Assembly: GCF_019834675.1 (NCBI RefSeq)
Contig: NZ_JABUBU010000005.1
Coordinates: 62,001 to 126,000 of the forward strand
From: Rhodococcoides corynebacterioides
GTDB taxonomy: Bacteria > Actinomycetota > Actinomycetes > Mycobacteriales > Mycobacteriaceae
Length of the DNA stretch: 64,000 nt
Direction of reading: 5' to 3'
This document shows positions 1,619-38,352 of the stretch, piece by piece. Below the pieces are notes generated by a model that saw only the letters and a list, made by a program, of their open reading frames with translations, was not told where the DNA came from and did no database searches. The position numbers and the translations under genes were made by a program. Position 1 is the first letter of the stretch. Every line of letters starts with the position of its first letter.

Positions 1619-1752
1619 CGACCCCGACGTCGTCACCACAGCAGCGCGCATTCCGGTCCGGAACCGGCCCTCAGTTCCGGACTCGCTCATCGCCACACGA
1701 TGGCGCGCAATCGATTGTTCGACAACCAATTCCTAATGAGTGGAGATCAGTC

Positions 1753-2922
1753 ATGTCCAAGCACAGTCCCGGGCGGTCACGGAGATCACGAAGCGCAGCA
1801 ACCGCTGCGCCAGTTGTCATCGGTTGCGTCGTGCTCACCTCCGGTGGGTACGGCGACATCGCGCATGCAGCGCCGCAGGACTTCGTGACCGCACCGGACA
1901 CCGCGCAGAGCGGCACCACGAACGCCACCCCGGTCCCGGCTCCGACGTCCCAGCGTGAGTTCCTGCCCGGGTTCACCCCGTCACCGCAGGTCCAGCAGTC
2001 GCAGTGGCGCAGCTACGACGACTACCAGTCCGGCCGCCAGCAGTCCTCGACCACCACCGCGCCGGTCTGCTACGCCCCGGCCCCGCAGCAGTCCGCCCCG
2101 GCCGCGCCCGCACCATTCGTCCCGCCGACCCCGCCGACCCCGCCGCCTCCGCCGACGGTGCAGCGCACCGTCATCTCCCCGATCGACGCACCGGAAGGCA
2201 CCATCCTGATCGGCAGCCAGGCCGTCGCACGCCCGGACTTCATCGACGCCCGCACGGCCGAGCAGTTCAACAACTCCGCTTCCGCACTCCAAGCCGACGG
2301 CGCGAACGCCCTGGTGAACGCCGGACTGGCCGACGCACCGCAGGCCGACCGTGTCGCAGCCGGCGCCGCGACCGGCATCGTCGTCGGCGGCGCAATCGGT
2401 GCCGCCGCCCTCGGTATCCCTGCCACCGCCGTCGGCGCTGTCGGCGGTGGCCTGGTCGGACTCGGAATCGGTTCTGCCACGGTGCCGTTCGTGTGGTGGG
2501 CACCGGGCATCGGTTGGGTCTTCGGCCCCGGCGTCGGTGCCGCCATCGGTGCCGGTGTCGGTGCCGCCGCGCTCGGTGTGCCCGCGGCCTTCGTCGGTGC
2601 GGGTATCGGCGGTGCGATCGGTGGTGCCATCGGCGCGACCGCGTTGGGCGGCGAGCAGACCACCATCACCGAATCCGCCCCCGCCGCTCCGGCGGGGGCT
2701 GCCGAACCGGCCCCGGTGTGGACGCCGCCGCAGGATCTCGCCCCGGTCGTCGACTCCGCCCCGGCCTACGTCGAGCAGGCCCGCACCGCGGTCGCCGAAC
2801 AGCCCGGCGGCGCAGCCGTGCTGGACGCGGTCGACACCGCCGTCGCCGACGCGACCCCGGTGATCGAGCAGGGCACCGCCGCGCTGAACGCCGCGCTGGC
2901 CCCGTTGGGCGTCGCGGTCTGA
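1753..2922 (+). CDS. Exported glycine-zipper protein, first gene of the conjugation operon ('insoluble domain' type)
   Basis: The ATG at 1753 follows GGAG at 1743-1746 and opens a basic N-terminus, a hydrophobic core and an AHA-AP signal peptidase site near residue 39, so the protein is exported. After a Pro/Ala-rich spacer (about residues 95-135), residues 200-300 alternate Gly and Ala in glycine-zipper form (GIVVGGAIGAAALG, GAGIGGAIGGAIG) around an aromatic FVWWAPGIGWVFGP insert. Such zippers oligomerise in membranes; corynebacterial relatives are annotated as insoluble-domain proteins. The tail is Ala/Pro rich. It begins the run of transfer genes and may form or line an envelope channel. 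That role is inferred from location and composition; no enzyme motif is present. Confidence 0.7.
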   Translation: MSKHSPGRSRRSRSAATAAPVVIGCVVLTSGGYGDIAHAAPQDFVTAPDTAQSGTTNATPVPAPTSQREFLPGFTPSPQVQQSQWRSYDDYQSGRQQSSTTTAPVCYAPAPQQSAPAAPAPFVPPTPPTPPPPPTVQRTVISPIDAPEGTILIGSQAVARPDFIDARTAEQFNNSASALQADGANALVNAGLADAPQADRVAAGAATGIVVGGAIGAAALGIPATAVGAVGGGLVGLGIGSATVPFVWWAPGIGWVFGPGVGAAIGAGVGAAALGVPAAFVGAGIGGAIGGAIGATALGGEQTTITESAPAAPAGAAEPAPVWTPPQDLAPVVDSAPAYVEQARTAVAEQPGGAAVLDAVDTAVADATPVIEQGTAALNAALAPLGVAV

Positions 2923-3019
2923 TCGCCGGGTGCAGCCGGACCCGCACTACCCGGGGCCCGGCTGCATCCGAAGGTTCGACACCGACCTCCCCACCCCCTC
3001 CACCGAAAGGCGCACTGCC

Positions 3020-3874
3020 GTGGCCCATTCCGAGGACCCGCACCCCGACGACGGGGCGGACGACTGGTTCACCGCCGCTGATACCGCCCCCGCAGCGGAG
3101 CCTGCGGCGGGGGAGAGCGGGCGCCGGCTGAGCCTGGCCGCCCGGCCACTCGACACGGACAGCGTCGACAGCGATCACGACGTCGAGGACTGGTTCGCCG
3201 ACCACGACACCGCTGCACCGGCCGGTGGTCCGGTCGACGAGTTCGGCACCCGCACCGACACGCTGCGCGCGCACGCCGACCACACCGCACCCGCAACCGG
3301 TGCGTCGTGGTGGCGTCGGCATCGCAGCTCGGTCGCCGTCGCCGCCGCCCTCACCGCCCTGGTCGGCGTCGTCGGCGGAGCGGCACTCGTGCTGACCGGC
3401 ATCGGGGGGCCGGAACCGGCCACCGCAGCACCGTTGCTGCCCACCAGCACCGTCGACACCACCACCGCTGCCGCCCCGGCGCAGCCCGCCACCGGCGAGG
3501 TCGCCGCGGCCGACTTCACCTGGTGCGCCGGCCAAGCCCCCGGTGAACCGGTCACCGGGGACACCACCGACCCCGGCATGGCCGCGATCTGGCGGTTCGA
3601 GAAGGCGTTCTACTTCGACCGCGACCCCGTCGCCGCCCGCGCCGCCGCCACCCCCGACGCCGTCATGGCCTCGGCCGACCGGCTGCGCCTGGGCATCGAC
3701 GCCCTCGAGCCCTCGGTGGAGTTCTGCGTCCTCGCCGACCCCGTCTCGCCCGGTGTCTACGACGTGACCGTGGCCGAACGCGGCCCCGGCATCGACCCCC
3801 GCACCACCACGCAACGGTTCACCACCGCCGAGTCCGGCGGCACCACCTCCATCACCGCCATCACCCGCCGCTGA
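3020..3874 (+). CDS. Bitopic membrane protein of the conjugation operon
   Basis: The GTG at 3020 follows GAAAGG at 3005-3010 and gives 284 residues. About 100 acidic, Asp-rich residues (cytoplasmic) precede one membrane segment at roughly residues 103-128 (AALTALVGVVGGAALVL). An external domain then carries two Cys in FTWCAGQ and EFCVLADP, which could form a disulphide. The second half, from ATPDAVMASADRLRLG to RFTTAESGG, resembles a small compact domain but I do not recognise the family. It lies between the glycine-zipper protein and the cutinase. A structural role in the secretion channel is likely; a TcpC/VirB8-like function is only a guess. Confidence 0.65.
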   Translation: MAHSEDPHPDDGADDWFTAADTAPAAEPAAGESGRRLSLAARPLDTDSVDSDHDVEDWFADHDTAAPAGGPVDEFGTRTDTLRAHADHTAPATGASWWRRHRSSVAVAAALTALVGVVGGAALVLTGIGGPEPATAAPLLPTSTVDTTTAAAPAQPATGEVAAADFTWCAGQAPGEPVTGDTTDPGMAAIWRFEKAFYFDRDPVAARAAATPDAVMASADRLRLGIDALEPSVEFCVLADPVSPGVYDVTVAERGPGIDPRTTTQRFTTAESGGTTSITAITRR

Positions 3875-3894: not shown

Positions 3895-5535
3895 ATGACC
3901 ACCACCACCCGCCGCGCCGGACGCACCGCCGTCGCCGCCAGCGCTGTCGCCGCGACGCTCCTCGCAGCCGCGACCGCCCACGCCGACCCGACCACCACGA
4001 CCAGCTCGGCGGCGGACTGCGCGCCGCTGCACCTGGTGGTCGTCCCCGGCACGACCGAGATCGACGAGAACAGCTCACCGGACACCGACTCCGGCTTCTT
4101 CTCCCGCCTCACCGTCCCGGCGATGCGCGACGCCAACTCCGGCGACACCCCTGCCCTGGAGCGCAGCTACGTCCCCTACCCGGCCTCGTTCGGCGGCAAG
4201 CCCGGTGACCGATCCTCCGACACCTACGCGACGTCGGTGCAGACCGGCATCGACAACGCCGAAGCCATGATCGGCGACATCGCGAAGAAGTGCCCCGGCA
4301 CGCGGGTGTTCGTCTCCGGCTACTCCCAGGGCGGGCAGATCGCCTCCGAGGTCATCCGCGAGATCGGCGCCGGAACCGGCCCCATCGACGCCGACCGGTT
4401 CGCCGGCGGCGCCCTGTTCTCCGACCCCACCCGCGGCCAGGGCGAACCCGTCCTCGGCGGCGGTGACCGCGCACCGGCACCGGCCCCCGGCACCACCGGG
4501 GACGCGGTGCAGTCCGTCCAGCTCGCCCCCGCGGTCGCCGCGTCACCGCCGACCGGAGGCGGCATCGCCCCCGACCCCGCCGACGCGGACTTCGGCGCCG
4601 TCGCCGACCGCGTCGCCTCCTACTGCACCGCAGGCGATCTCGCGTGCGACACCCCCGCCGACGCACCCGCCGCGAAGCTGGTCGCCAACATCGCCGGACA
4701 GTCCTCGATGGACACCCGCGACCCCGTGCGCATCCTCACCGACGTCTCCACCGCCGTCGGCCGATCCGCCCTGCTCACCAGCGCCTCGGTCGTGAACGAC
4801 AACATCGACTTCGACTCCCGCGCAGGCCGGTTCGAGGTCACCCCCGCATCGGAGACGGTGCTGGGGAAGATGGCGAAATACTCCGACCCCACCGCCGTCA
4901 CCGACGGCGAGGCAGTCGACGAAGCGGTCGGCGCGGTCACCAAGATCGCCGGCATGGCGATCGGGGCGGCGATCACCGTCGCCAAGGACGTCATCACCCC
5001 CGAGACCATCGGCCAGCTCGCCGCCGTCGGGCTGGCGAACCCTCCGGCTGCGCTCGCCGTCCTCGCCACCAAGGTCGGTGCCGCGGCGGTGAAGCTGGTA
5101 CCCCCGGCGACGATCGACTCCGCCGTCACCGCCGCGTTCGACGAGGTCACCCGCACCGTCGACGACAACGCGGGCCTGGCGAAGCTGGTCACCGACACCT
5201 CGTACTGGAACACCGCGGCCAAGCACGGCTCCTACGACAGCGTCCCGGTCGGGACTCGCGGGGAGACCCCGGTGCAGCTCACGGTGCGGTGGATCGTCGC
5301 CCTCGCCGCCGACCTCACCGGCGACAACACACTCGCCGAGAAGGTCGGGGCTGTTCTGACCCGCAGCGCCCAGTTGCTCGCCACCACCGACACCGTCCGC
5401 CCCGCCGGCCAGATCCTCAGCGCCGGTACCGCGTCCGCACGGGCGAGGTCGACCACGGCCACCTCGTCGACCACAACGCCGTCGGCCACCACCACCACTA
5501 CACCGGCCGGGGCGTCCTCGACCGGAACCCGGTGA
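3895..5535 (+). CDS. Secreted cutinase-family esterase with long C-terminal extension
   Basis: Begins with a Sec signal (cleavage near residue 31, AHA-DP). LHLVVVPGTTEIDE and the nucleophile elbow VFVSGYSQGGQIASEV (Ser at about residue 144) place it in the cutinase-like alpha/beta-hydrolase family; later CDTPADAP and KHGSYDSV are candidate positions for the Asp and His. At 546 residues it is more than twice a classical cutinase (about 200-230), with an Ala-rich insert and a Ser/Thr-rich tail. In mycolate-bearing bacteria related enzymes cleave lipid esters, and the phage enzyme LysB cleaves mycolyl-arabinogalactan. Being inside the transfer operon, it could loosen the mycolate layer for the secretion channel; that is inference. 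Confidence 0.8.
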   Translation: MTTTTRRAGRTAVAASAVAATLLAAATAHADPTTTTSSAADCAPLHLVVVPGTTEIDENSSPDTDSGFFSRLTVPAMRDANSGDTPALERSYVPYPASFGGKPGDRSSDTYATSVQTGIDNAEAMIGDIAKKCPGTRVFVSGYSQGGQIASEVIREIGAGTGPIDADRFAGGALFSDPTRGQGEPVLGGGDRAPAPAPGTTGDAVQSVQLAPAVAASPPTGGGIAPDPADADFGAVADRVASYCTAGDLACDTPADAPAAKLVANIAGQSSMDTRDPVRILTDVSTAVGRSALLTSASVVNDNIDFDSRAGRFEVTPASETVLGKMAKYSDPTAVTDGEAVDEAVGAVTKIAGMAIGAAITVAKDVITPETIGQLAAVGLANPPAALAVLATKVGAAAVKLVPPATIDSAVTAAFDEVTRTVDDNAGLAKLVTDTSYWNTAAKHGSYDSVPVGTRGETPVQLTVRWIVALAADLTGDNTLAEKVGAVLTRSAQLLATTDTVRPAGQILSAGTASARARSTTATSSTTTPSATTTTTPAGASSTGTR

Positions 5536-5564
5536 CCGATACACACGATTCAGGAGGGACGGAG

Positions 5565-6212
5565 ATGGCCGCACAGCCGATCGACGACCACCAGCTCTAC
5601 ACCGACGACACCACCGGCTCGACCCCCGTCCCCGCCGGACTCCGCATCCCCCCAGTCGAGCGGCAGGCACCGATCCATCCTGACCCGGTCGCCGGGCCGG
5701 GACGCCCGCCGGTGATGTGGCTGCTCGGCGCGCACGGCGGCGCCGGAGTCTCCACCCTCGCCCGGGTATGGGCACCCGCGGCGGATGCGCTCGGTGGGTG
5801 GCCCGCCGCCGACCGGTACCGGTCGGTGATCGTCGTCGCCCGCACCCACCGCACCGGCCTCGCCGCCGCCCACGACCTCCTCCTGCAAGCCGCCGCCGGC
5901 CTCGTCGGCGGGTGCACCGTCATCGGACTCGCACTGGTGCCCGACGCCCCCGGCAAACTCCCGAAGACGCTGCGGCGCAGCGCCGACGTCGTCGCCTCCG
6001 CCGCACCCGTGGTGTGGCACCTGCCGTGGGTGCCGGACCTACGGGTGCACACCGCCGACGACCTCGCGCCGTGGTCACCCGCCGAACCCGACCCGACCCC
6101 ACCGGGCCGACTACGCGCGCAGGTCACCTCCGCCGCATCCCCGCACCCCGGACTCGTCGCCGCCGGGCACGCCGCGTTCGACGCCGCCCGCACCGCCGCC
6201 GCCACACGCTGA
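5565..6212 (+). CDS. P-loop protein of the conjugation operon (DUF6668-like)
   Basis: The ATG at 5565 follows CAGGAGGGA at 5551-5559 and gives 215 residues. Residues 52-63 read LLGAHGGAGVST, a deviant Walker A of the ParA/MinD type, and later SVIVVARTHRTG and IGLALVPDAPG fit the strand-loop pattern of such a fold. It matches my memory of the actinobacterial DUF6668 family found beside type IV secretion genes. The C-terminal half contains VVWHLPWVPDLRV. It is probably cytoplasmic and may position or energise the apparatus, but whether it hydrolyses ATP cannot be told, because the Walker B element is not obvious. Confidence 0.65.
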   Translation: MAAQPIDDHQLYTDDTTGSTPVPAGLRIPPVERQAPIHPDPVAGPGRPPVMWLLGAHGGAGVSTLARVWAPAADALGGWPAADRYRSVIVVARTHRTGLAAAHDLLLQAAAGLVGGCTVIGLALVPDAPGKLPKTLRRSADVVASAAPVVWHLPWVPDLRVHTADDLAPWSPAEPDPTPPGRLRAQVTSAASPHPGLVAAGHAAFDAARTAAATR

Positions 6213-6260
6213 CCGACACCCCAACCCCGACCCCACCGCTCACACCACCGGAGGAAACCC

Positions 6261-6545
6261 ATGCTCACCACCACCGCGACCGTCGTCCTGGCCCAGAACA
6301 TCGGCGACGTCGACCCCACCGCGCCGAGCGGGGAGTTCGGCGACAAGATCAACATGCTCATGTCCTGGCTGATGTGGGGCTGCATCTTCGCCTCCGTCGC
6401 CGCGATCATGATCTGCGGCGCCACCCTCGGCTACCAGCGCATGACCGGCGGCGGCGGAGACAGCACCGGCAAACTCGTCGGCGGCCTGGTCGGCGCGGTC
6501 ATCATCGGCGGAGCCGCCGGCCTGGTCAACGGACTCATCCTGTGA
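6261..6545 (+). CDS. Small two-span membrane protein, VirB2/pilin-like
   Basis: A 94-residue protein starting at ATG 6261, 7 nt after GGAGG at 6249-6253. It has a hydrophobic N-terminus, one span around SWLMWGCIFASVAAIMICG (residues 33-54) and a second around VGGLVGAVIIGGAAGLVNG near the C-terminus, joined by a short Gly-rich loop with KLVGG. Size and topology suit a VirB2/TrbC-type pilin or VirB3 partner of a type IV system. Its C-terminal motif GGAAGLVNGLIL recurs in the next gene, so the two are paralogous. The next gene starts inside its stop codon. The lack of a long signal peptide argues for an unprocessed membrane component. Confidence 0.65.
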   Translation: MLTTTATVVLAQNIGDVDPTAPSGEFGDKINMLMSWLMWGCIFASVAAIMICGATLGYQRMTGGGGDSTGKLVGGLVGAVIIGGAAGLVNGLIL

Positions 6546-6757
6546 CCGCCCCGGCATCAGCACTGGGGACCACCGTGCTGGGGTGGTCGACCTGGGGAAT
6601 CGTCATCGCCAGCACCGCCGTCGCGTGCGGCGCGTCCTTGCTGATCGTGCATCACACGAGACTCTCCGACGTATCCGAGCCCCGCCTGCTGCTGATCCTG
6701 GTGGTCGCCGTGGTCCTCGGCGGGCTCGCCGGCCTGGTGAACGGACTCGTCCTGTGA
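6542..6757 (+). CDS. Small two-span membrane protein, paralogue of the preceding gene
   Basis: The GTG at 6542 overlaps the previous stop (GTGA) and encodes 71 residues. Two hydrophobic segments (about 14-37 and 50-68) flank a short polar loop VHHTRLSDVSEPR. The protein ends in VVLGGLAGLVNGLVL, nearly the same as the end of its 94-residue neighbour, which suggests tandem duplication of a pilin-like gene. No catalytic motif is present. It probably inserts into the cytoplasmic membrane as part of the transfer apparatus. Translational coupling on both sides supports its being real despite its small size. Confidence 0.65.
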   Translation: MTAPASALGTTVLGWSTWGIVIASTAVACGASLLIVHHTRLSDVSEPRLLLILVVAVVLGGLAGLVNGLVL

Positions 6758-7038
6758 CCGCCGCCGTGCACACCGCCGCCGGGGTCGACGAGCTGAACGA
6801 GACCGCCACCGGTGCCTTCGACTCCGCGGTGAGCCTGCTCGAACTGCTCGCCCGCGGGGCACTGATCGTCTCCGCCATCGGCATCGCCGTCGGAGTGGTC
6901 ATGCTCGTCTCGGGCAGCTCCCGCGCCATCGGCACGATCCTCGGCAGCGTCACCGGCGTCGTCCTGGCCACCGTCGGACTCTCCGGCGGCATCGACTGGA
7001 TCATCGGCCACGCCTCGCTGGCGGGGGTCGGCACATGA
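6754..7038 (+). CDS. Small membrane protein of the conjugation operon
   Basis: The GTG at 6754 overlaps the preceding stop (GTGA) and gives 94 residues. An amphipathic N-terminal helix (DELNETATGAFDSAVSLLEL) is followed by two hydrophobic segments, ALIVSAIGIAVGVVMLVSG and GTILGSVTGVVLATVGLSG. The topology resembles the pilin-like genes on either side, but the C-terminal GLVNG motif is missing. It ends with the next gene starting in its stop codon (ATGA at 7035). VirB2- or VirB3-like function is plausible but not proven by sequence. Confidence 0.6.
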   Translation: MTAAVHTAAGVDELNETATGAFDSAVSLLELLARGALIVSAIGIAVGVVMLVSGSSRAIGTILGSVTGVVLATVGLSGGIDWIIGHASLAGVGT

Positions 7039-7328
7039 GCACCACCGTCACCCTCGCGGCCGCGGCGATGGTGCTGGCGCAGCCGCCGACCTCCCCGGTG
7101 ACCTTCCCCTCCGAGGTCTGGGGACCGCTCATGACGGCCCTGTCGTGGCTGCTGTGGTTCGCCATCTGCACCTGCATCGCCGCGCTGTTCGTCTGCGGTG
7201 CGGTGTTCGTCAACCAGCGCAAATCCACCGGAACGCAGGTCGTCGAGGACGCCACACTCGGCCGCATCCTCGTCTGCGCCGCCGTCATCGGCGGCGCCGC
7301 CGGCATCGCCCAAGCCGTCCTCGCCTGA
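7035..7328 (+). CDS. Small two-span membrane protein, third pilin-like paralogue
   Basis: The ATG at 7035 overlaps the previous stop and gives 97 residues. The layout copies that of the 94-residue protein at 6261: hydrophobic N-terminus ending MVLAQPP, a span SWLLWFAICTCIAALFVCG, a short loop with an NQRKSTG turn, and a C-terminal span ending VIGGAAGIAQAVLA. The conserved SWLxWxxI...FVCGAxxxNQR pattern supports paralogy. The Cys residues inside the first span (CTC, VCG) are unusual and shared in part with the 6261 protein (WGCI, MICG). It closes the block of four small membrane proteins. Confidence 0.65.
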   Translation: MSTTVTLAAAAMVLAQPPTSPVTFPSEVWGPLMTALSWLLWFAICTCIAALFVCGAVFVNQRKSTGTQVVEDATLGRILVCAAVIGGAAGIAQAVLA

Positions 7329-7355
7329 CCCACCCATCCGAAAGGTGCCCCGCCC

Positions 7356-7994
7356 GTGACCGTCTCCCGCACCGCCCGCCTCACCGCCGCCGCGGTCGCC
7401 GTGATCCTCGCGGCCGCCGGATGCGGCACCGACGACACCTCCGACACCGCCGCCCCGAGCCCGGCGGTCGACACCACCTCCGCGCCGCAGGACCTGCAGT
7501 GGCGCACCGTCGCCGGTGTCTCCGTGCCCACCTCCCGCACCGCCGGACCCACCGCCGGGACCGGAGCGGCTCGGCACGGGTACGACCGCACCCCGCAGGG
7601 CGCGGTGCTCGCCGCGATCAACGGGCAAACCGCGCTCGCCGTCGCGGACGACCGCACCTGGCCGGAGGTCGTCAACACCGTCACCACACCGGGACCGGGA
7701 CGTGATGCGTTCGCCGTCGCCCGCGCCGGTGTCACCGTCGCCGGCACCGTCCCCGACGCGGCCGCGCCGCGGTTCGTCGGGTTCGAGGTCACCGACTACC
7801 AGCTCGACCCACCGACCGCGGCGGTGTCGGTGGCACAAACCATCGGCACCGACCCGCAGCTCTACGCCTATCCCGTTGCCCTGCAATGGATCGACGACGA
7901 CTGGCGCATCGTTCTGCCCACCCCGGAGGACAACATCGACGCCGCCGAGATCGCCGACCTCACCGGCTACACCACCCTGGAAGGGGCATCGTGA
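7356..7994 (+). CDS. Lipoprotein of the conjugation operon
   Basis: The GTG at 7356 follows GAAAGG at 7339-7344 and gives 212 residues. A signal peptide ends in the lipobox LAAAGC (Cys 24), so the protein should be lipid-anchored on the outer face of the membrane. The mature part has GYDRTPQGAVLAAINGQTA, a motif repeated in the next protein (GYSRTPQGAALAAANI). I relate it to actinobacterial DUF8175-type proteins next to type IV genes, from memory. The alternating helix and strand pattern is compatible with an NTF2-like fold as in VirB8/TcpC, but this is not demonstrated. Stop and next start overlap (GTGA). Confidence 0.65.
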   Translation: MTVSRTARLTAAAVAVILAAAGCGTDDTSDTAAPSPAVDTTSAPQDLQWRTVAGVSVPTSRTAGPTAGTGAARHGYDRTPQGAVLAAINGQTALAVADDRTWPEVVNTVTTPGPGRDAFAVARAGVTVAGTVPDAAAPRFVGFEVTDYQLDPPTAAVSVAQTIGTDPQLYAYPVALQWIDDDWRIVLPTPEDNIDAAEIADLTGYTTLEGAS

Positions 7995-8824
7995 CTCGCA
8001 CCCGCACCCTGATCGTCGCCGCCGCAGCGCTCGTTGTCCTGGTCGTCGTCGGCGCATTTGTCTTCGTCGTGCCGAACCTGCGCGGCGACGAGGACACCGA
8101 CACCGCCGCCCCGCCGACCTCGGCCGAACCGACCCCCGGCCCCGGGATGAGCGAGCTGAACACCGGCGCCACCGGATTCGGCATCCCGGACGCGGACCTG
8201 TCCGGTCGCACCGTGATGGTCCCGAACAACCCTGCCGGGCAACCCCTCCCGCAGCGCGACCCGGCCGGGCCGCGCACCGAATGCACCCCCGACGGGGCAC
8301 CGGTGACCTCACCGGAGGGGGTGATGATCCAACGCAACTTCGGCGTCTCCACCCTGTACTCCGAGACGGACGGGCCCTCCCGCTTCGACGGCCTGGTCCT
8401 CGCCGGCTACAGCCGCACCCCACAAGGTGCCGCGCTGGCCGCCGCGAACATTCTTCCGCGGACTCTCGCCCGCGGCCCGGTTGCTCTCGAAGCGGTCAAC
8501 AAGCTCGTTCTCGACGGTGGTTCCTTGGTCGACTCCGAGGCTGGTCAGGAGGACGTCGACGGCCCGGTCAACACCGACATCGTCGCATTGCGCGCGCCGA
8601 TGGGTTTCAAGATCCTCTCGTGCACCAGCAACTTCGTCGTCGTTGAGCTGGCACTGATTCGCGATGTCGACGACACCGGGCAGCGATTGCAGCAACCGCA
8701 GTACTACGGCATGCGGCTGAATATGGTCTGGGACAACGGGACGTGGAAGGGGCGTGAGGCAACAGGACCCGGATCGACTGGGCCGTACTCGTCCCTCGAC
8801 GGCTTCACGCGGTGGGCGCTGTGA
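7991..8824 (+). CDS. Membrane-anchored protein with NTF2-like/VirB8-like features
   Basis: The GTG at 7991 overlaps the previous stop and encodes 277 residues. One N-terminal span (LIVAAAALVVLVVVGAFVFV) is followed by an Asp/Thr/Pro-rich linker and an external domain of about 200 residues. That domain holds two Cys (TECTPDG, LSCTSNF) and the GYSRTPQGAALAAAN motif shared with the preceding lipoprotein. A single span with an external domain repeated in two neighbours is what VirB8/TcpC-type channel proteins look like. The stop overlaps the next GTG. Confidence 0.65.
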   Translation: MTRTRTLIVAAAALVVLVVVGAFVFVVPNLRGDEDTDTAAPPTSAEPTPGPGMSELNTGATGFGIPDADLSGRTVMVPNNPAGQPLPQRDPAGPRTECTPDGAPVTSPEGVMIQRNFGVSTLYSETDGPSRFDGLVLAGYSRTPQGAALAAANILPRTLARGPVALEAVNKLVLDGGSLVDSEAGQEDVDGPVNTDIVALRAPMGFKILSCTSNFVVVELALIRDVDDTGQRLQQPQYYGMRLNMVWDNGTWKGREATGPGSTGPYSSLDGFTRWAL

Positions 8825-10395
8825 GCGCCGGAGGCACCAGCGCCTTCACGCTGATGAGACAAGCTGTTCTGACCGTCCTGGCCACACTTGCAGTCCTCGT
8901 CACCAGCGCCGGCCCCGCGGCCGCGCAGGAACCGACTGCGCCCAATCCATCACCGGTGACCGGCATCGTGGACCAGGGCAACGACTTCCAACAAACCCGT
9001 CGGGAGTGCTTGGCCGACGGGTCGGACGTTATCCGCGATGGCAGCGCCGCCGACAGGCTGCTCGACTTCTTCAACAGTCGAGGAGCTGCCGATCAGATTC
9101 TTTGCCTGGACACTGCGGTTACGGAACATCCCGGTGACGCCCTGGCCACGGCCGCGTCGTCGGCGGCGTCGGCGTTCTGGGGGGACTCGGTCGGCGACTT
9201 CGCCAAGGCGGTCATGGAAGGCAACGCCCAAGCGTTCCGGACGGTGATGACGTTCTGGATGACCGCGGGCATTCCCGGCCTCGGCGCTGAAACGGCGATG
9301 TCGGGACTGCGGAACATCGTCACCGGCTTCACCGTCGCCGCCCTGTTCGCCTCACTGGTCATTGCGACGACCAAACTCGCCGTCGCCCGCAAACAAGCGG
9401 TGATGGAAGGAGCGACGGAGACGGCGTCGATGCTGGTGCGGACGGTGTTCACCGTCGCCCTGCTGCCGGTGTTGGTGCTGATGTTCCACCAGGGCGGCGA
9501 CGCCGCCTCGGCGTACGCGCTCGAGAGGTTCGTCGGGGGTGATCTGAACGAGAAGATCACCGCGATCACCGCCTTCGACGAGAAGACCGGTCTGGGGCCG
9601 GTGTTCGCGCTCGCGTGCGCCGGGTTCGCCTTCCTCGGCTCCGTCGCCCAGTTGATCGCCCTCCTGATCCGCGAGGCGGTGCTGTGCGTGGTGGTGGCGG
9701 TGATCCCGCTGGCGGCGGCGTCGTCGGCGACGGCCACCGGGCGCTCGTCCTACAAGTCGATGATCGCCTTCACGTTGGGGGCGTTGCTGTTCAAGCCCGT
9801 CGCGACCTTGCTGTATCTGTTCGCGTTCTGGGCGCAGTCCTCGTCCTCCGGTGACCCGGTGGCCTCGGTCATCATCGGCTCGGTCCTGCTCGCAGTCGTC
9901 GGGTTCGCGCTCCCGACGTTGGTGCGGATCATCGCCCCCGCGGCCGAGACCATCGCCGCCGGCGGTGGCCAGGCCGCCGGGTTGGCCGCCGCGGGCGGCG
10001 CCCTCGCCGGTGGAGCCGGGGCGCTCGGTGCCCGCGCCCTGTCGACCGGTGCCCGCGCGCTCGGCGGCACCGGCGGTGGGTCCGGTCCCGGCCCGGGGAT
10101 GGGCGCGGCGGGGACCGGAGCGAAGGCACCGGCCGGGTATCGCGGTCAGTACACCGGCGGTGCACCCGTGCTCGGGAAGTTGCACACCGCATCCGGTGCG
10201 GTGGGGCGAACCACTCGGGCCGGGTCGAGCGTCGCCGGGGCAGTGCGAGGCGGCACTGCCGCGACGCTCGGCGGCGCGGCCGGTGCAGTGCGCACGGCGG
10301 CGTCCGGAGCTCGCGCGACAGGTCAGGCCGCGGGACGGCTCACCGCAGCCGCCGAAGGCGCGGTCGGCAACTACCACGGACGGATCCCCCGATGA
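8821..10395 (+). CDS. Polytopic VirB6/TrbL-like channel protein
   Basis: The start is taken as GTG 8821 because it overlaps the previous stop (GTGA); another in-frame GTG lies at 8812. The 524-residue protein begins with a signal-like segment cleaved near PAAAQE, then an external region with paired Cys (RRECLADG, QILCLDTA). At least six membrane segments follow between residues about 155 and 370. The tail of about 150 residues is Gly/Ala rich and basic, predicted cytoplasmic and disordered. This order (signal, Cys-bearing domain, five to six spans, low-complexity tail) is that of VirB6/TrbL-type proteins in Gram-positive conjugation systems. The next gene starts inside its stop. Confidence 0.7.
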   Translation: MSAGGTSAFTLMRQAVLTVLATLAVLVTSAGPAAAQEPTAPNPSPVTGIVDQGNDFQQTRRECLADGSDVIRDGSAADRLLDFFNSRGAADQILCLDTAVTEHPGDALATAASSAASAFWGDSVGDFAKAVMEGNAQAFRTVMTFWMTAGIPGLGAETAMSGLRNIVTGFTVAALFASLVIATTKLAVARKQAVMEGATETASMLVRTVFTVALLPVLVLMFHQGGDAASAYALERFVGGDLNEKITAITAFDEKTGLGPVFALACAGFAFLGSVAQLIALLIREAVLCVVVAVIPLAAASSATATGRSSYKSMIAFTLGALLFKPVATLLYLFAFWAQSSSSGDPVASVIIGSVLLAVVGFALPTLVRIIAPAAETIAAGGGQAAGLAAAGGALAGGAGALGARALSTGARALGGTGGGSGPGPGMGAAGTGAKAPAGYRGQYTGGAPVLGKLHTASGAVGRTTRAGSSVAGAVRGGTAATLGGAAGAVRTAASGARATGQAAGRLTAAAEGAVGNYHGRIPR

Positions 10396-11891
10396 CCTCG
10401 ACGGTGCACGACGAACCGGCGATCTTCTCCGCCGGCACCCGCCCGAAGTCGACGTTCGCGTTCGGGTTGTCGGTCAAAGCCGTCGGCTACGCCGCCGCCG
10501 GATTCGCCGTCTCGTTCGCAGTGCTGATCTTCGGCGGCGTCATCCCCGGCCTGGCCCTCATGGCCGTCATGGCCGTGCTGCTGGTGCCGCTGGTGGTGGC
10601 CCCGAACGGTCGATCCCTCTACGAGACAGGACAGTTCGCGATGCAGTGGTTTCACCGCAAGCACATCTCCCGCTCCACCGAGTACCACGCCGGACCGCAT
10701 TCGCAGATCCCCGGCGGCCGGTACCGCCTGCCCGGCCTGCTCGCCACGACCACCCTGCACGTCGGCACCGACCGGCACGGCAACGAGTTCGGGATGATCC
10801 ACCACCCCGCCGATCACCGCTACACCGTGATCGTGGACTGCCTGCCCGGCGGCGACGAAGCGGTGGTGCGCAGCGAGAAGGACCTCTACACCGCCGACTG
10901 GGGCGTCTACCTCGCCGACCTGGGCCTGGCCAGTGACATCGTCGGCGCGACCGTGGTCGTGGAGAACATCCCCGCCACCGGCCTGCGCCTGGCTCGCCTC
11001 GTCGAACGGGAGATGGCCGCGGCCGCGCCGGGACTGTCTGCGGAGTTCGTGCGGCAGTCGTCGGTGCGGATGCCCTCGGGTCGGCACCGCACCCTGGCGC
11101 GGCTGTCGATCACCTTCCGCGCCACCACCCGCGAGCGGCAGAAGGAACCGGAGGAGATGGCCGCGGAGCTGGCGCGGCGGCTGCCGGACCTCTACGGCAA
11201 CCTCGCCGGCGCAGGTGTCGACGCCCAACCGATGACGGCGGCGGAGATCGTGGCCACCGCGCACCGCTCCTACAACCCGTCGACGGAGAACGACTTCGAA
11301 GAGCTCGACATCGCCGGGCAGCCGCACGGGGTGGCGTGGGAGGACGCCGGACCCGGCCGGGCCCGCACCGAGTGGGGTCACTACCGGCACGACGGGGCGA
11401 CGTCGGTGGTGTGGGAGATGGCCGCACCACCGGAGTCGGTGTTCACCGACACCGTCCTCAAACCGCTGCTCGCCCCGCACGACGACCTGCCCCGCAAACG
11501 CCTCACCCTGATCTACCGGCCCTATTCGGCCGGGGACGCAGCGAAGAAGGTCGAGAAGCAACACCGAGACGCCCTGCACGCCATCAACTCCCGCGGCGCC
11601 AAGATCAGCTCCGCCGAAGCGGAGAAGCGTCTCGAGATCACCTCCCAGGCCCGCAAGGAGATGGTCTCCGGCGCCGGGCAGCTCCGGTACTCGGCGCTGC
11701 TCACGATCACCGCCCAAGACCCGGCCGAGGTGGGGAACGCCGCGGCGGTCACCGAATCGCTCGCCGCCCGCGCCCGCCTGCGGCTGCGGCGCGCGCACGG
11801 CTTCCAGGACGCCGGGTTCGCCGCCGGCCTCGGGCTCGGGGTGCTGCTGCCCGACCACATCACCACCTCCGCCCTCGTCCGCCGCAGCTGA
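10392..11891 (+). CDS. SCO6880-family membrane protein of the secretion system
   Basis: The ATG at 10392 overlaps the previous stop (ATGA); 499 residues. Two close spans lie at about 28-78 (AVGYAAAGFAVSFAVLIFGG, LALMAVMAVLLVPLVV), followed by a long soluble part. HRKHISRSTEYHAGPHSQIPG after the spans and a helical stretch DAAKKVEKQHRDALHAINS are typical of the SCO6880 family, which sits directly upstream of VirB4-like ATPases in actinobacterial elements. It may combine the PrgI/VirB3 anchor with the N-terminal half of a VirB4 protein whose motor half is the next gene. Its end is separated from the ATPase gene by 61 bp. Confidence 0.75.
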   Translation: MTSTVHDEPAIFSAGTRPKSTFAFGLSVKAVGYAAAGFAVSFAVLIFGGVIPGLALMAVMAVLLVPLVVAPNGRSLYETGQFAMQWFHRKHISRSTEYHAGPHSQIPGGRYRLPGLLATTTLHVGTDRHGNEFGMIHHPADHRYTVIVDCLPGGDEAVVRSEKDLYTADWGVYLADLGLASDIVGATVVVENIPATGLRLARLVEREMAAAAPGLSAEFVRQSSVRMPSGRHRTLARLSITFRATTRERQKEPEEMAAELARRLPDLYGNLAGAGVDAQPMTAAEIVATAHRSYNPSTENDFEELDIAGQPHGVAWEDAGPGRARTEWGHYRHDGATSVVWEMAAPPESVFTDTVLKPLLAPHDDLPRKRLTLIYRPYSAGDAAKKVEKQHRDALHAINSRGAKISSAEAEKRLEITSQARKEMVSGAGQLRYSALLTITAQDPAEVGNAAAVTESLAARARLRLRRAHGFQDAGFAAGLGLGVLLPDHITTSALVRRS

Positions 11892-11952
11892 ACCGGGCCA
11901 CGACCCGTTCGGCCGACGCCCCCGGCTCCACCGACTCGAAGGGACCGCCCTC

Positions 11953-13755
11953 GTGACACCCACCGACACCCGCAGAGCCTCCACCGATTCCGACCAGCCG
12001 CAGCGGCGGCGCGGGTTCATCCCGGATCTCGACTACGCCGACCTCGCTGCCCGCATCGAAACCGGCGAGACGGCCGAACCGGCGAAGCTCAGCCGTGTCG
12101 GGATCGGACTGGCCCGCTGGCGCAACACCCACCGCGACGCCGCCGGTTCCGGCTCACCGCAGGGGAAGCACCGCGCGGACCCGGACTGGCGGTCGGCGCT
12201 GGCGACCACGGCGGACGGGGCGCGGGGCGCCGGCGGGGGGCGGATGACCTCGGTGCCCGCCCCGATCGAGTACGAGGCATCGTCGGTGCAGCTCTGCGGG
12301 CTCAACCCGTGGGCCATCGGTGCGGCCGCCCCGAACTCGGGCACCATCGTCGGCCAGCACGCCGTCACCGGAGAAGCGGTCGCGTGCGATCCGTTCGCCT
12401 ACTTCCGCGACAACCACATCGCCAACCCGTCGATGTTCGTCCTCTCCCTCCCCGGGCTGGGGAAGTCGTCGCTCATCCGCAAGGTCCTGCTTGGGGCCAC
12501 CGCGTGGGGGCAGACACCGATCGTCGCCGGGGACATCAAAGCCGAATACGTCGCCCTGACCACGATGCTCGGCGGGCAGGTCGTCACCCTCGGCCACGGT
12601 GGTGGGCATCTCAACCCCCTCGCCGCCGGCACTCTCGGCCAAGCCGTCGTGCGGCTGCGGGCTGCCCGCACCGACGCCGCCGCAGCGGGCGACGCCGCGC
12701 GGGTCGAGCACCTGGACGAACTGCTCGGCACGGCGGAGCTGACGGTGCGAACGCGGCAGGTCAACGCCGTGTGCGCGCTGATCGAGCTGATTCGCTACGA
12801 CACCCACTCGGTGCGGGCGTTCGAGAACTCCATCATCGGTATCGCCCTCGACGAGCTCTACTCCGAACACGGCGGGTTCAACTACGCGCACCCGCCGCTG
12901 ATCCGGGACCTCTACCAGCGCATCGATACCGGCTCGGAGGCGATGCTGCGCGCGACGTACCAAACCACCCGAGAGGGCTACCGGACGCACATTACCGACC
13001 TGATGCAGGCGCTCGGGGCGCTGATCTCGGGGCCGTTGGGGACGATCTTCGCCGACCACACCTCCCAACCGCTCGACCTCGACGCCCCCATGATCTGCAT
13101 CGACGTCTCCTCCCTCGACCGGGGCGATACCGCCCTCAAGGCCGCGGTGATGCTCTCCTGCTGGGCCGATGCCTACGGGACCGTGGAAGCGGCGCACCTG
13201 CTGGCCGACGCCGGCCTGGACCGGCAGCGGTTGTTCCTGCTCGCCCTCGACGAGCTGTGGCAAGTCATCGGCGCCGGACCCGGCATGGTCGCCCGCGTCA
13301 ACGAGATCTCCCGCCTCAACCGCACCGACGCCACCGGGCTGCTGATGATCACCCACACCGGCCGCGACCTCGAAACCCTGCCCACCGAAGCGGACATCAA
13401 GACCGCCAAGGGGTTCATCGACCGCGCCGGCATGGTCGTCTGCGGCGGCCTTCCCATCGGTGAGGTCGAACGACTCTCCGGCGAGCTCAAGTTCACCTCG
13501 GCCGAGCAGGACATGGTGACCTCCTGGTCCCGCGGGGCAGCATTGCGGTCGGCGGAGCGGCGGACCGCCCGCTCACCGATCGGGCGGGGGAAATTCCTGA
13601 TCAAAGTGGCCAAGGACAACACCCCCGGCATCCCCATCCAGACGGTGTTCACCGACCTCGAGATCGACTCCGGAGTCCACGACACCAACGCCCGCTTCGC
13701 CGACTACTTCGACACCGCCGCCGGCGACGCTTCGACCGGGCAGGTGCTCCGATGA
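11953..13755 (+). CDS. VirB4-like ATPase of the type IV secretion system
   Basis: A GTG start gives 600 residues. Walker A is PGLGKSSLIRK at about residues 166-176 and Walker B is LFLLALDELWQVIG at about 427-440, followed by NEISRLNRTDATGLLMITHT, the arginine-bearing motif seen in VirB4/TraC motors. GDIKAEYVALTTMLGG after Walker A matches the FtsK-HerA-like fold. VirB4 proteins form cytoplasmic hexamers that energise pilus or substrate transport. The family's N-terminal membrane-associated half is short here, in keeping with its partner being the preceding SCO6880-like protein. The stop overlaps the next ATG (ATGA). Confidence 0.85.
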   Translation: MTPTDTRRASTDSDQPQRRRGFIPDLDYADLAARIETGETAEPAKLSRVGIGLARWRNTHRDAAGSGSPQGKHRADPDWRSALATTADGARGAGGGRMTSVPAPIEYEASSVQLCGLNPWAIGAAAPNSGTIVGQHAVTGEAVACDPFAYFRDNHIANPSMFVLSLPGLGKSSLIRKVLLGATAWGQTPIVAGDIKAEYVALTTMLGGQVVTLGHGGGHLNPLAAGTLGQAVVRLRAARTDAAAAGDAARVEHLDELLGTAELTVRTRQVNAVCALIELIRYDTHSVRAFENSIIGIALDELYSEHGGFNYAHPPLIRDLYQRIDTGSEAMLRATYQTTREGYRTHITDLMQALGALISGPLGTIFADHTSQPLDLDAPMICIDVSSLDRGDTALKAAVMLSCWADAYGTVEAAHLLADAGLDRQRLFLLALDELWQVIGAGPGMVARVNEISRLNRTDATGLLMITHTGRDLETLPTEADIKTAKGFIDRAGMVVCGGLPIGEVERLSGELKFTSAEQDMVTSWSRGAALRSAERRTARSPIGRGKFLIKVAKDNTPGIPIQTVFTDLEIDSGVHDTNARFADYFDTAAGDASTGQVLR

Positions 13756-14054
13756 GGGCCGAATACGCCGCCGAGGTCAAGGAGTGGGCGCTCGAGACGT
13801 ACCGCTCCTCCCGCCCGAACTACCCATCGCGGGATCAGTGCGTGACCGCGATCGCCGGTCAGATCGGCGCGCACGTCAACACCGTGAACCGGTGGATCAA
13901 GCTCGAATTCGGGCCCTCCCGCGAGCCCGCGGCGGACGAGGTGGTCGCCAAGCTCCGCGCCGCCGAAGCCGAGATCGAACGCCTGCTGCGGGTCAACCGT
14001 GACCTGTCCGACCGGCTCGCCGCCGCCTCGCCTCGCACGATCGCAGCGCAGTGA
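13752..14054 (+). CDS. Small HTH plus coiled-coil protein, transposase-OrfA-like, inside the conjugation operon
   Basis: A 100-residue protein coupled to the ATPase gene by ATGA and to the hydrolase gene by GTGA. Residues 5-50 (VKEWALETYRSSRP...AIAGQIGAHVNTVNRWIK) look like the helix-turn-helix of IS3-type OrfA transposase proteins, and residues 62-92 form a leucine-rich coiled coil (RLLRVNRDLSDRLAAA). No OrfB, inverted repeat or other insertion-sequence part is nearby, and the overlaps on both sides show it is a settled operon member. It is more likely a DNA-binding regulator or accessory factor recruited from an insertion sequence than an active transposase gene. Confidence 0.6.
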   Translation: MRAEYAAEVKEWALETYRSSRPNYPSRDQCVTAIAGQIGAHVNTVNRWIKLEFGPSREPAADEVVAKLRAAEAEIERLLRVNRDLSDRLAAASPRTIAAQ

Positions 14055-15721
14055 AGAAGGGCGGGACGATCGCGCTGGTCGCCGCCCTCGCGGTTGCACT
14101 GTTCGTGGTGCTGTTCGTCACCACCATCGGGGGTCGGATCGACTGCGGTCCCACGAGCTCGACACCCGGTGCCCCGGTCCCGGCTGGTACGCACGTCAAG
14201 CCGACCGACCCGGCTGCGACCACGTTGACGTCCGGATTCGGTCCGCGGTGGGGCACCGAGCACCGCGGCGTCGACTACGCCGGACCGGTCGGCACACCGA
14301 TCTACGCCTTCACCGACGGAACCGTGCGAGAAGCCGGACCGGCCGACGGTTTCGGCAACTGGATCATCGTCGACCACGTCATCGACGGAAAGCCCTACTC
14401 AACCGTCTATGGCCACATGGAGAGCGACGGAGTACTCGTCACGACCGGCCAGCAGGTCACTGCCGGCCAGGAAATCGGCCGGATCGGCAACGCCGGTCAG
14501 TCCACCGGGGCGCACCTGCATTTTGAGGTCTGGGACGGTGGCCGACTACCGGACGGAGCGGGCACGGCGGTCGACCCCGCGTCGTGGGTGGACAGCGCCC
14601 GCGCGCCCGGTACCGCGCCGCCCCCGCCCGCACCCGGCAGCAGCGGAAACAGCAGCACCGTCGGAGGGTCCACCGGGCCCGGTGGCAGCGTCGGCGGTCT
14701 GAACGACAAGCAGCTCGCCATCTCCAAGCAGACCGTCGCCATCGGCGAGGCGATGAACGTCCCCGAACAGGGCATCGTCGTCGCCCTGGCAACGGTGTCG
14801 CGGGAGTCGACTTTCCAGATGTACGCCAGCTCCAACGTCCCGGACTCGCTGAACTACCCCCACGACGCCGTCGGCTCGGATCACCTGTCGGTCAACCAGT
14901 TCCAGCAGCAGGTCACCATCTGGGGCGACACCGCTACCCTGATGAACCCCGTCACCGCCAACCGCCTGTTCTACGAGCACCTCCTGGCCGTCCCCGGGTG
15001 GGAGTCGATGCCCGTCACCGCCGCCGCGCAGGCCGTGCAGAACTCGGGCCTACCCGGCGCCTACGCCGAACACGAACCCCTCGCCCGCACCCTGTATGCG
15101 CAGTTCAAGGGCGCAGGCCGCGACCTCCCCGCCGCGGACCGCGCCGCCCTCGCCGGCGCCGCGGCCGCCGCCACCGTCGGGAGCGGAGCGGCCACCGCCG
15201 ACTGCGCGGATGCGACGCCGAACACCAACGGCCCCACCTTCACCCCCGGTGGCCCGTTCGGGGCCAACGTCATCGCCGCCGCGATGCGCTGGCTCGGCAC
15301 CCCCTACGCCTGGGGCGGCGGCGACCAGAACGGACCCACCAACGGCATCAGCGACGGCGGCGGCGCCGCTGACGCGCACGGAGACACCGGCAAAGTCGGC
15401 TTCGACTGCTCCGGGTTGACCCTGCACGCGGTCTTCCAAGCCTCCGGCGGCGCAATAAGCCTGCCGCACTTCACCGGCGACACCTCCAACCCCGGACAGC
15501 TCTACGACCCCCGAGGCCAGGAGATCCCGCTCGACCAGAAACAACCCGGCGACCTGATCTTCTTCGGCTCCGGTGGCAATACCCACCACGTCGGCATCTA
15601 CTACGGCGTCGAGAACGGCACCGAAATGCTGCTCAACGCACCGCAATCGGGCGACGTGGTCTCCGTTCAACCACTCTCCGGCTGGGCCGGAGAACAGATG
15701 TACGTCAGGAGATTCGGATGA
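14051..15721 (+). CDS. Three-domain cell-wall hydrolase: M23 peptidase, lysozyme-like domain, NlpC/P60
   Basis: The GTG at 14051 overlaps the previous stop; 556 residues with an N-terminal membrane anchor (residues 6-26). Domain 1 (about 55-175) is a LytM/M23 metallopeptidase with HRGVD and the HLHFEV zinc motif. Domain 2 (about 215-355) has ALATVSRESTFQMYASS and SVNQFQQQ, as in lysozyme/SLT-like transglycosylases, with Glu in the RES triplet as the candidate acid. Domain 3 (about 395-555) is NlpC/P60 with catalytic Cys in GFDCSGL and His in HHVGIYYG. Such VirB1/TcpG-type enzymes open peptidoglycan for the transfer channel. All visible catalytic residues are present. Confidence 0.9.
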   Translation: MKKGGTIALVAALAVALFVVLFVTTIGGRIDCGPTSSTPGAPVPAGTHVKPTDPAATTLTSGFGPRWGTEHRGVDYAGPVGTPIYAFTDGTVREAGPADGFGNWIIVDHVIDGKPYSTVYGHMESDGVLVTTGQQVTAGQEIGRIGNAGQSTGAHLHFEVWDGGRLPDGAGTAVDPASWVDSARAPGTAPPPPAPGSSGNSSTVGGSTGPGGSVGGLNDKQLAISKQTVAIGEAMNVPEQGIVVALATVSRESTFQMYASSNVPDSLNYPHDAVGSDHLSVNQFQQQVTIWGDTATLMNPVTANRLFYEHLLAVPGWESMPVTAAAQAVQNSGLPGAYAEHEPLARTLYAQFKGAGRDLPAADRAALAGAAAAATVGSGAATADCADATPNTNGPTFTPGGPFGANVIAAAMRWLGTPYAWGGGDQNGPTNGISDGGGAADAHGDTGKVGFDCSGLTLHAVFQASGGAISLPHFTGDTSNPGQLYDPRGQEIPLDQKQPGDLIFFGSGGNTHHVGIYYGVENGTEMLLNAPQSGDVVSVQPLSGWAGEQMYVRRFG

Positions 15722-16320
15722 CACCCACCACTCACACGGCCCGTCTGAGCACCCTCGTTGCAGCGACACTGGCTGCGGCCGCACTCGCTCTAACCGGCTG
15801 CGGAGGAACCGAACCTGCTGTCCCCGACGGCGGCACCCCGCCCACGTCCACGGCGCCACCGCCTCCGACGGTGTGCACCGACCGCATTGACGAGGCCACC
15901 GGCGTCGACACCTGCGACGTCGAGGCCGTCCTGTCCACCGCCGCAGCCGCCCTGTACTCCTACCGACCCACCGAGCAGCCCCGCAAAGGTGTGGACCTCG
16001 ACGCCGCAGCGACCCTTCTCAACCCTCTCTGGGTGCAAGAAGTCGGGGAGTCCTCCTCCGCTTTGGCGCCCGTCACCGGCGCCGAGTGGGACCGGTGGGC
16101 CACCAGCGGGATCACCGTCGACGCCGACGCGAACGTGACCTCCGACGACCACCCGGCCGACACGGACACCCTCGTCCGCCGCGTCGTCGCCGTGCAGCAG
16201 ACGCTCGTCGACGCCGGCGGCGCCACCATCGGCGAGCTGACACCGATCGCGCTGTACATGACTGCCACCCGCGCCAACCGCCTCACCGGCTGGGCCGTGT
16301 CCGCGATGACCGTTCGATGA
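15718..16320 (+). CDS. Lipoprotein closing the conjugation operon
   Basis: The ATG at 15718 overlaps the preceding stop (ATGA) and gives 200 residues. The signal peptide ends in a lipobox ALALTGC, followed by a Pro/Thr-rich spacer and a helical domain containing two Cys (VCTDRIDE, DTCDVEAV) close together. The C-terminal half ends ANRLTGWAVSAMTVR. I do not recognise a named family. As the last gene before a 650-bp non-coding stretch it completes the operon that starts at 1753. An envelope role beside the hydrolase is plausible. Confidence 0.65.
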   Translation: MTPTTHTARLSTLVAATLAAAALALTGCGGTEPAVPDGGTPPTSTAPPPPTVCTDRIDEATGVDTCDVEAVLSTAAAALYSYRPTEQPRKGVDLDAAATLLNPLWVQEVGESSSALAPVTGAEWDRWATSGITVDADANVTSDDHPADTDTLVRRVVAVQQTLVDAGGATIGELTPIALYMTATRANRLTGWAVSAMTVR

Positions 16321-18400: not shown

Positions 18401-18409
18401 AATGAATGT

Positions 18410-20639: not shown

Positions 20640-20645
20640 TCCGAG

Positions 20646-38349: not shown

Positions 38350-38352
38350 CAC

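Follow-up and report, generated by a model that had tools for sequence, protein, structure and literature searches.

A long cutinase in conjugative type IV secretion operons of mycolate-bearing actinomycetes and its probable role at the mycolate layer

The stretch of Rhodococcoides corynebacterioides DNA analyzed here, hereafter the window, comprises 64,000 nucleotides (NZ_JABUBU010000005.1, positions 62,001 to 126,000; G000:C39:62001-126000 in our collection, from a genome of 4.02 Mb). It carries the type IV secretion system (T4SS) operon of a putatively conjugative plasmid and, within this operon, a gene for a secreted cutinase-fold protein of 546 amino acids (aa) (3895..5535, + strand). We found this long cutinase in most VirB4-positive genomes of the mycolate-bearing family to which the window belongs and in none of those drawn from outside it. 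We consider it probable, at about 0.72, that this plasmid-encoded cutinase works as a component of a conjugative actinobacterial T4SS that has become adapted to cells with mycolates (diderm-like cells), in which it would loosen the mycolate layer together with two partners encoded directly upstream, here called gz and tm. The same operon encodes a wall hydrolase (14051..15721, +) with M23 endopeptidase (E = 1.5e-30) and NlpC/P60 (E = 3.3e-16) domains and a muramidase-like middle part that matches the solved muramidases 8b2h (E = 3.2e-20) and 8b2e (E = 7e-19). The preliminary description of this DNA had placed a cutinase-like enzyme and a three-activity peptidoglycan hydrolase in one T4SS operon, and both assignments hold, as does the shared operon, which consists of contiguous genes on one strand in an order that recurs across genera.

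Distribution of the long cutinase among T4SS loci

Two profiles, A1 built from seven long cutinases and A2 from six VirB4-like ATPases, were searched in 401 genomes of the family of the window, Mycobacteriaceae, and in 395 genomes drawn class-wide. By established chemotaxonomy, the family is mycolate-bearing and other actinomycetes are not; the mycolate synthesis gene product Pks13 was tested only in the genomes for which it is mentioned below. Nearly all mycolate genomes have chromosomal cutinases. The generic family PF01083 was dropped as a presence marker; even A1 matched 399 of the 401 family genomes at E ≤ 1e-20. The A1 scores were bimodal, with plasmid-type cutinases below 1e-40 and chromosomal ones at about 1e-21 to 1e-35.

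A VirB4 ATPase was present in 142 of the 401 family genomes. The long plasmid-type cutinase occurred in 126 of these 142 compared to 4 of the 259 VirB4-negative family genomes (G002, G010, G067, G370), the count of 126 and the remainder of 16 having been read manually by matching the cutinase table to the VirB4 list. Among the VirB4-positive genomes outside the family, all from the class-wide set, none carried it (0/49; Fisher p ~6e-32 against the family, a value that overstates the difference because the loci share ancestry). Read locus by locus, the cutinase was found in 33 of 40 mycolate-family and 0 of 20 non-mycolate T4SS loci, and SCO6880, VirB4 and a VirB6-like protein were found in all 60. 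The co-occurrence with VirB4 in mycolate-bearing hosts that the preliminary description had anticipated is thereby borne out, and an equal frequency in mycolate-free hosts, which it had set against its own reading, is not what these genome and locus counts give. The position of the gene is also fixed: the long cutinase lay within 20 kb of VirB4 in 92 of the 150 best VirB4 places, and in all 92 it was located upstream on the same strand, at a distance of 5.8-11.1 kb (median 8.4). Many of the remaining 58 places had the long cutinase on a separate contig or farther off.

The picture extends to plasmid records and to a broader species set. A cutinase search of named plasmids, whose counts take in other cutinase subfamilies, returned Rhodococcus (221), Prescottella (42), Gordonia (26), Nocardia (13), Corynebacterium (11), Dietzia (7), others, and Cryobacterium (1). 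The same T4SS ATPase was found in named records of Streptomyces (93), Arthrobacter (50), Clavibacter (21), Paenarthrobacter (20) and Curtobacterium (15). Across 84,980 GTDB species, 54 cutinase relatives were identified, all in mycolate genera once a mislabelled record had been set aside. This record, 'Kitasatospora arboriphila NRRL B-24581' (L224), had been considered as a mycolate-free exception and was rejected, since 18.9 kb of its contig match Williamsia muralis at 98% identity.

In order to separate host type from descent, two further groups of systems are informative. In a tree of VirB4 and SCO6880, 84 mycolate-host systems (lineage 1) form a single clade with a support of 100, and 82 of the 84 carry the module. 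A second, deeply different T4SS lineage (VirB4 at E ~1e-65 to A2) is also found in mycolate hosts. In five genomes with this lineage 2 (G018, G042, G092, G129, G304), all of them with Pks13, a cutinase of another subfamily is located directly upstream of an M23/NlpC-type hydrolase. The other group is a single genome of the same family, G011, which gave no Pks13 match and only a generic FadD32 match of 33% identity and is therefore expected to lack mycolates; clear Pks13 orthologues were found in the seven other family genomes tested and in eight of eight in a further set. G011 has two T4SS, yet no cutinase was detected anywhere in its genome, and neither gz nor tm was detected near its T4SS. 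Its second T4SS is a tree relative of lineage 2 and has no cutinase within ~30 kb. The comparison of lineage 2 with G011 is the strongest sign that the pairing of cutinase and hydrolase follows the envelope and not the T4SS clade.

The cutinase-fold protein and its partners

The product of 3895..5535 belongs to the cutinase family (PF01083, E = 1.4e-18, residues 93-259, 67.8 bits compared to a gathering cut-off of 25.9), and it appears to be secreted, with an apparent export signal and no recognised wall anchor. The nucleophile position named in the preliminary description, Ser144, lies in a GYSQG motif, and the triad is completed by Asp248 and His444; alignment A1 showed all three residues to be invariant in seven relatives from three genera plus one record filed as Cryobacterium. 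The protein is not a Culp6/Rv3802c equivalog according to NCBIfam (NF050160, E = 2.1e-22, 79.7 bits compared to an equivalog cut-off of 570), nor does it share the pks13-fadD32 location, which is occupied by a chromosomal cutinase on contig C4.

The AlphaFold model shows a confident alpha/beta core (predicted local distance difference test, pLDDT, ~95). The 195 residues that separate Asp248 from His444 (4639..5223, +) form an insert made up entirely of helices, modelled at moderate confidence (pLDDT ~50-80). The length of this insert is 187-200 aa in nearly all relatives and 133 aa in chromosomal Williamsia copies. The corresponding linker comprises 83 residues in LysB of phage D29 and about 12 in cutinases (PMC7022511), so that the plasmid protein has the long Asp-His linker typical of LysB, at the same position. 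The best Foldseek matches in the PDB were MSMEG_6394 (E 1e-10) and Rv3802c (E 4e-9), and Lysin B proteins stood at the top of the viral matches (best E = 3.4e-7). In a profile search against solved chains, Rv3802c was closest (1.4e-36) and LysB (3HC7) weak (4.4e-4). A match to the PHROG family 'endolysin' (phrog_102, E = 2.5e-23, residues 40-202) was counted as fold-level support only. The parallel to phage lysin A/lysin B pairs drawn in the preliminary description is thus also a structural one. Because Rv3802c, encoded in the mycolate cluster, acts as a phospholipase/thioesterase (PMC2625445), lipid-ester chemistry in the mycolate envelope is plausible by analogy for the plasmid cutinase.

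Two genes upstream of the cutinase belong to the same module and had been overlooked in the preliminary description. The first, gz (1582..2922, +; probable start at ~1750, MSKHSPG...), encodes an exported proline-rich protein with a glycine-zipper hydrophobic segment of ~100 aa rich in Gly and Ala. Its relatives are annotated as 'insoluble domain protein' by the Prokaryotic Genome Annotation Pipeline, and a Pfam search gave only a chance-level match (Gly-zipper_Omp, E = 5). A gz profile matched at least 30 of 80 mycolate-family T4SS loci compared to 0 of 20 non-mycolate loci; this is a lower bound, as the profile is biased by composition and misses true cases, such as the proteins of this kind recognised by eye in L004 and L233.

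The second gene, tm (2930..3874, +), encodes a protein without a Pfam family that has one transmembrane (TM) helix (residues 132-154) followed by a predicted extracytoplasmic NTF2-like domain (residues 205-314, AlphaFold pLDDT ~96), with Cys199 and Cys266 invariant. Foldseek matches of tm were weak and mostly NTF2-like; among them were the VirB8 domain of PrgL and a plasmid-conjugation protein with an NTF2-like fold. The fold class fits the VirB8 family, and the best VirB8 match, 7aed, is weak (E = 0.014), with no Foldseek match below 0.001. The gene is present in 76 of 80 mycolate-family T4SS-related loci compared to 0 of 20 non-mycolate loci and is kept in most loci that lost the cutinase. 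Since its profile gives matches of E ~1e-5 everywhere in the linker/TM region, only matches to the C-terminal domain were counted there; single-sequence tblastn with tm reaches near relatives only, and plasmid-wide counts were not used. Together, gz and tm form a host-type-specific head module of the operon. A further copy of the NTF2-like C-terminal domain occurs in the same genome in a 537-aa open reading frame (ORF) (L278:8477-10087; G000:C23:50527-50838), near which no cutinase or VirB4 profile match was found. Our literature searches, with subscription journals outside their coverage, found no paper describing the host restriction or the partner genes.

The catalytic residues are not kept in all copies. 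Ser, Asp and His were seen in 145 of the 176 long cutinases read, and most copies without the His in the aligned column belong to a subfamily that has a shorter insert and an HxxY of its own. The serine is replaced by Gly, Ala or Arg in 14 of 127 distinct sequences, with at least four independent losses on the tree, and most of these copies lie beside VirB4. Seven Nocardia loci (L216, L218, L259, L261, L267, L268, L269) carry tandem cutinases, in which an active paralogue stands directly upstream of the dead copy. In four Nocardia loci the dead copy is alone and the His is lost too, and the Corynebacterium-like genome G054 has another T4SS-linked dead copy. The dead copies show omega values of 0.14-0.45, that is, purifying selection.

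Among the Nocardia-type loci, L235-L252, L258, L260 and L272-L274 come from a single genus (apparently Nocardia, g22), numerous genomes of which have closely related T4SS, cutinase and tm genes. Several of these T4SS are located on multi-megabase contigs, as if vertically kept or part of a widespread integrated element. L204, L253, L255 and L257 have a Nocardia-type long cutinase and tm with no VirB4 within 10 kb, and L204 also has a pilin-like gene; they represent split or decaying T4SS.

Proposed role at the mycolate layer and alternative explanations

From these data we infer a substrate, a site of action, a role at a pore and a need in transfer for the cutinase, as follows. The M23/muramidase/NlpC protein would open the peptidoglycan, and the exported cutinase-fold protein would act in the mycolate layer, which it most likely loosens through cleavage of the ester-linked lipids that surround the site of export. 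Like the linker of LysB, the helical insert may hold long acyl chains. The anchored NTF2-like tm and the secreted glycine-zipper protein gz, the rest of the mycolate-specific head module, might build or hold the passage. A bolder version, in which gz, tm and the cutinase form a mycomembrane-specific outer complex functionally equal to the VirB7/9/10 core of Gram-negative systems, with gz as the passage, the cutinase fold seating it and active/inactive pairs dividing the labour, is speculative, and we would give it only about one chance in four.

Several observations weigh against the cutinase as a mycolate-specific, layer-loosening part of the T4SS. The plasmid pA26BH1 (L001, NZ_MN657140.1), filed under Cryobacterium, supposedly a mycolate-free host, has the whole module; this module is close to the rhodococcal ones, and a literature search for a paper on the plasmid found none. 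About 5% of the T4SS-bearing family genomes have no cutinase near their T4SS, as seen in G020, G031, G032, G194, G277, G335 and G348, G020 being a Pks13-positive host whose lineage-2 system has none. Other cases differ in kind: in G015 a transposase-like ORF occupies the operon-head position, G170 is represented by a 7.6-kb contig, and in G259 and G276 the cutinase is found at the opposite contig end, the contig of G276 being the circular plasmid pGBRO01. Moreover, because the lineage-1 T4SS of mycolate hosts form one clade, most of the correlation represents a single evolutionary event; host type and descent are largely confounded, and only lineage 2 and G011 give independent points. The nearest solved relative, Rv3802c, is a phospholipase/thioesterase and not a mycolyl-arabinogalactan esterase. 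Finally, the serine was lost at least four times and the dead copies are kept under purifying selection, so that catalysis is not the whole role.

These points qualify two earlier claims. A dedicated way through the mycomembrane agrees with the host restriction, G011, lineage 2 and the LysB-like insert, while some T4SS genomes have no nearby cutinase. Likewise, fold and triad are those of a serine hydrolase, and the mycolate layer is its putative target, the closest solved relative being a phospholipase/thioesterase. A pure enzyme model fails for the serine-less members and must be widened, because the dead copies are T4SS-linked and kept.

How far it must be widened is the issue raised by an explanation in which the cutinase fold mainly binds lipids or acts as a scaffold, as the subunit by which the T4SS is seated in the mycomembrane. 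Catalysis would then be of minor importance or not needed, and certain lineages would have divided it between an inactive and an active copy. The repeated loss of the serine beside VirB4, the Nocardia pairs of dead copy and active paralogue, purifying selection on the dead copies and the nearly constant insert length all fit it. Against this, 113 of the 127 distinct copies keep the serine, most with the full triad, four dead copies (L139, L209, L211, L213) also lack the His and could be in early decay, and the fold is that of a hydrolase; we regard this explanation as rather unlikely, at odds of roughly four to one against. It is also conceivable that the cutinase was simply inherited in a T4SS clade circulating in Mycobacteriaceae and has another function, such as lipid scavenging or surface change, with no tie to mycolates. 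The single lineage-1 clade and the relocated cutinases of Nocardia without nearby VirB4 would be expected under such inheritance. Its improbability stems from the distant lineage 2, in which a separate cutinase adjoins the wall hydrolase in five mycolate hosts, from the absence of any in Pks13-less G011, from the upstream position fixed in 92 of 92 places and from linear plasmids, whose cutinases belong to a further subfamily and, in pVAPN, lie close to MobF.

A role in entry exclusion, aggregation or mating-pair formation, in which the enzyme remodels the donor or recipient surface and the envelope is not opened, would suit a secreted protein with no recognised wall anchor. We consider it more improbable still, as the cutinase stands right next to a peptidoglycan hydrolase both in lineage 2 and in pRErm46, an arrangement that argues for envelope opening. 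The least likely explanation, to which we give very little weight, is a cargo enzyme for nutrient use that came to lie in the operon by chance. A LIP-family secretory lipase (16973-18400) is indeed encoded a few kb away and, with a TetR gene, is probably cargo, but the order and orientation of the cutinase are conserved across genera and replicons, and the neighbouring lipase is absent from those records. Overall, the cutinase as a T4SS part adapted to the mycolate layer remains our preferred reading.

Such a defined, host-type-restricted module bears on how conjugation machines cross the mycolate outer membrane, with G011 as a natural Pks13-less control; a T4SS review (PMC12857230) uses the word mycolic once, for a layer that is crossed. 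If resistance and virulence plasmids of Rhodococcus, Nocardia, Dietzia, Gordonia and Corynebacterium meet a host barrier, the module could be its cause. It could also be a source of enzymes that act on mycolate layers and of domains that bind them, and could mark conjugative elements that typing tools call non-mobilizable (MOB-suite labels on related plasmids).

Organisation of the locus and comparison with known systems

The genes between 1582 and 16320 lie on a single strand with intergenic gaps of at most 61 bp and frequent short overlaps, and they form a real operon. The cutinase gene is followed by those for a DUF6668 protein (5565..6212, +; PF20373, E = 4.2e-10), a small two-helix, VirB2-pilin-like membrane protein (6261..6545, +), a relative of which is annotated as 'pilin', a small membrane protein (6754..7038, +; start inferred from the L002 homologue) and another, also pilin-like (7035..7328, +). 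Next come a lipoprotein-like secreted protein for which no family was found in NCBIfam or Pfam (7356..7994, +), a single-TM protein that is a VirB8-position candidate by position only (7991..8824, +; ORF listed from 7886), and the polytopic VirB6-like membrane protein (8812..10395, +), whose profile matched every T4SS locus read, 20 non-mycolate and 40 from the mycolate family. The SCO6880 family protein (10392..11891, +) is clearly assigned (NF042935, E = 4.4e-150). The VirB4-like ATPase (11953..13755, +) matches NCBIfam VirB4-like models below their cut-offs (E = 8.8e-15 and 3.3e-10) and has the conserved Walker region PGLGKSS. A small helix-turn-helix protein (13752..14054, +; HTH_23, E = 0.0016), annotated as 'transposase' in relatives, precedes the wall hydrolase, and a lipoprotein-like protein (15718..16320, +) is, by gene spacing, the last of the block. 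Plasmids of Rhodococcus, Dietzia and Corynebacterium repeat the order cutinase, DUF6668, small membrane proteins, VirB6-like, SCO6880, VirB4, HTH and M23/NlpC with small variation, the M23 gene having moved in some. A close plasmid, that of Rhodococcus sp. NBC_00297 (G116:C2) from the same genus, has a protein identity of 82-89%.

Downstream of the operon, the window encodes a TraD/VirD4-type coupling protein (22477..24393, +; TraG-D_C, E = 1.6e-31) and a TrwC-type (MOBF) relaxase-helicase (32116..38352, -; PF08751, E = 4.2e-86). With the VirB4-like ATPase, these make up the gene content of a conjugative T4SS, by which the element is predicted to be conjugative. The lipase and TetR genes (16973-19036) form a lower-GC stretch between the wall-hydrolase and TraD blocks. 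A 287-aa protein (19878-20741, -) has ribosomal L7/L12 dimerisation and C-terminal domains (E 1e-17 and 5e-21) and a weak match to the Xre/MbcA/ParS antitoxin C-terminal domain (E 1.6e-4); judged by its domains, it appears to be an odd L7/L12 fusion on a conjugative plasmid. Right after TraD and DUF4913, a 2141-aa helicase/methyltransferase-like protein (24972-31397, +) with a 'helicase-related' counterpart in L001 is a possible anti-restriction protein. Two pentapeptide-repeat proteins are encoded at 38792-39733 and 45766-47154; this fold is known from gyrase-protecting proteins.

Among known systems, pRErm46 of R. equi is one of the nearest, and the envelope-passage role that the preliminary description had suggested was proposed for its cutinase, with the LysB analogy, in 2019 (PMC6794481). 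Like the window, pRErm46 has a homologous module (cutinase and LysM/M23 endopeptidase) and an SCO6880/VirB4 T4SS. It differs in that its wall hydrolase directly follows the cutinase, compared to 8 kb downstream in the window, and in its MOB-P relaxase (PMC6794481) compared to the TrwC/MOBF type of the window plasmid. As quoted in PMC6794481 from Francis et al. 2012, a cutinase promotes conjugation of the rhodococcal linear plasmid pFiD188, which thus shares a conjugation-linked cutinase with the window. The linear plasmids pVAPN and pNSL1 have a cutinase of ~663 aa from another subfamily beside ParA, DUF2637 and ADP-ribosyltransferase genes, with MobF in pVAPN, and no SCO6880/VirB4 was seen in the stretch read around it.

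At the protein level, Rv3802c/Culp6 and MSMEG_6394 share the core of the plasmid cutinase and provide its closest solved structures and closest NCBIfam model, but Rv3802c is chromosomal, lies in the mycolate synthesis cluster and has a solved chain of 285 aa without the 195-residue insert. LysB (D29, 3HC7) is likewise a GYSQG serine hydrolase with a long Asp-His insert; in the plasmid protein, the insert is more than twice as long, an export signal is apparent and sequence similarity to LysB is weak. Similarly, tm resembles the VirB8 family, TcpC and PrgL in having one TM helix followed by an NTF2-like domain, and differs from VirB8 in its weak structural matches and in that the operon has another gene in the VirB8 position. 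In PMC6794481, we found no description of the host restriction, the partners, the insert or the inactive copies. What the present analysis adds to the published idea of envelope passage is a survey by host type, a control that lacks Pks13 and a second T4SS lineage, together with the descriptions of the insert, of the partner genes and of the inactive copies.

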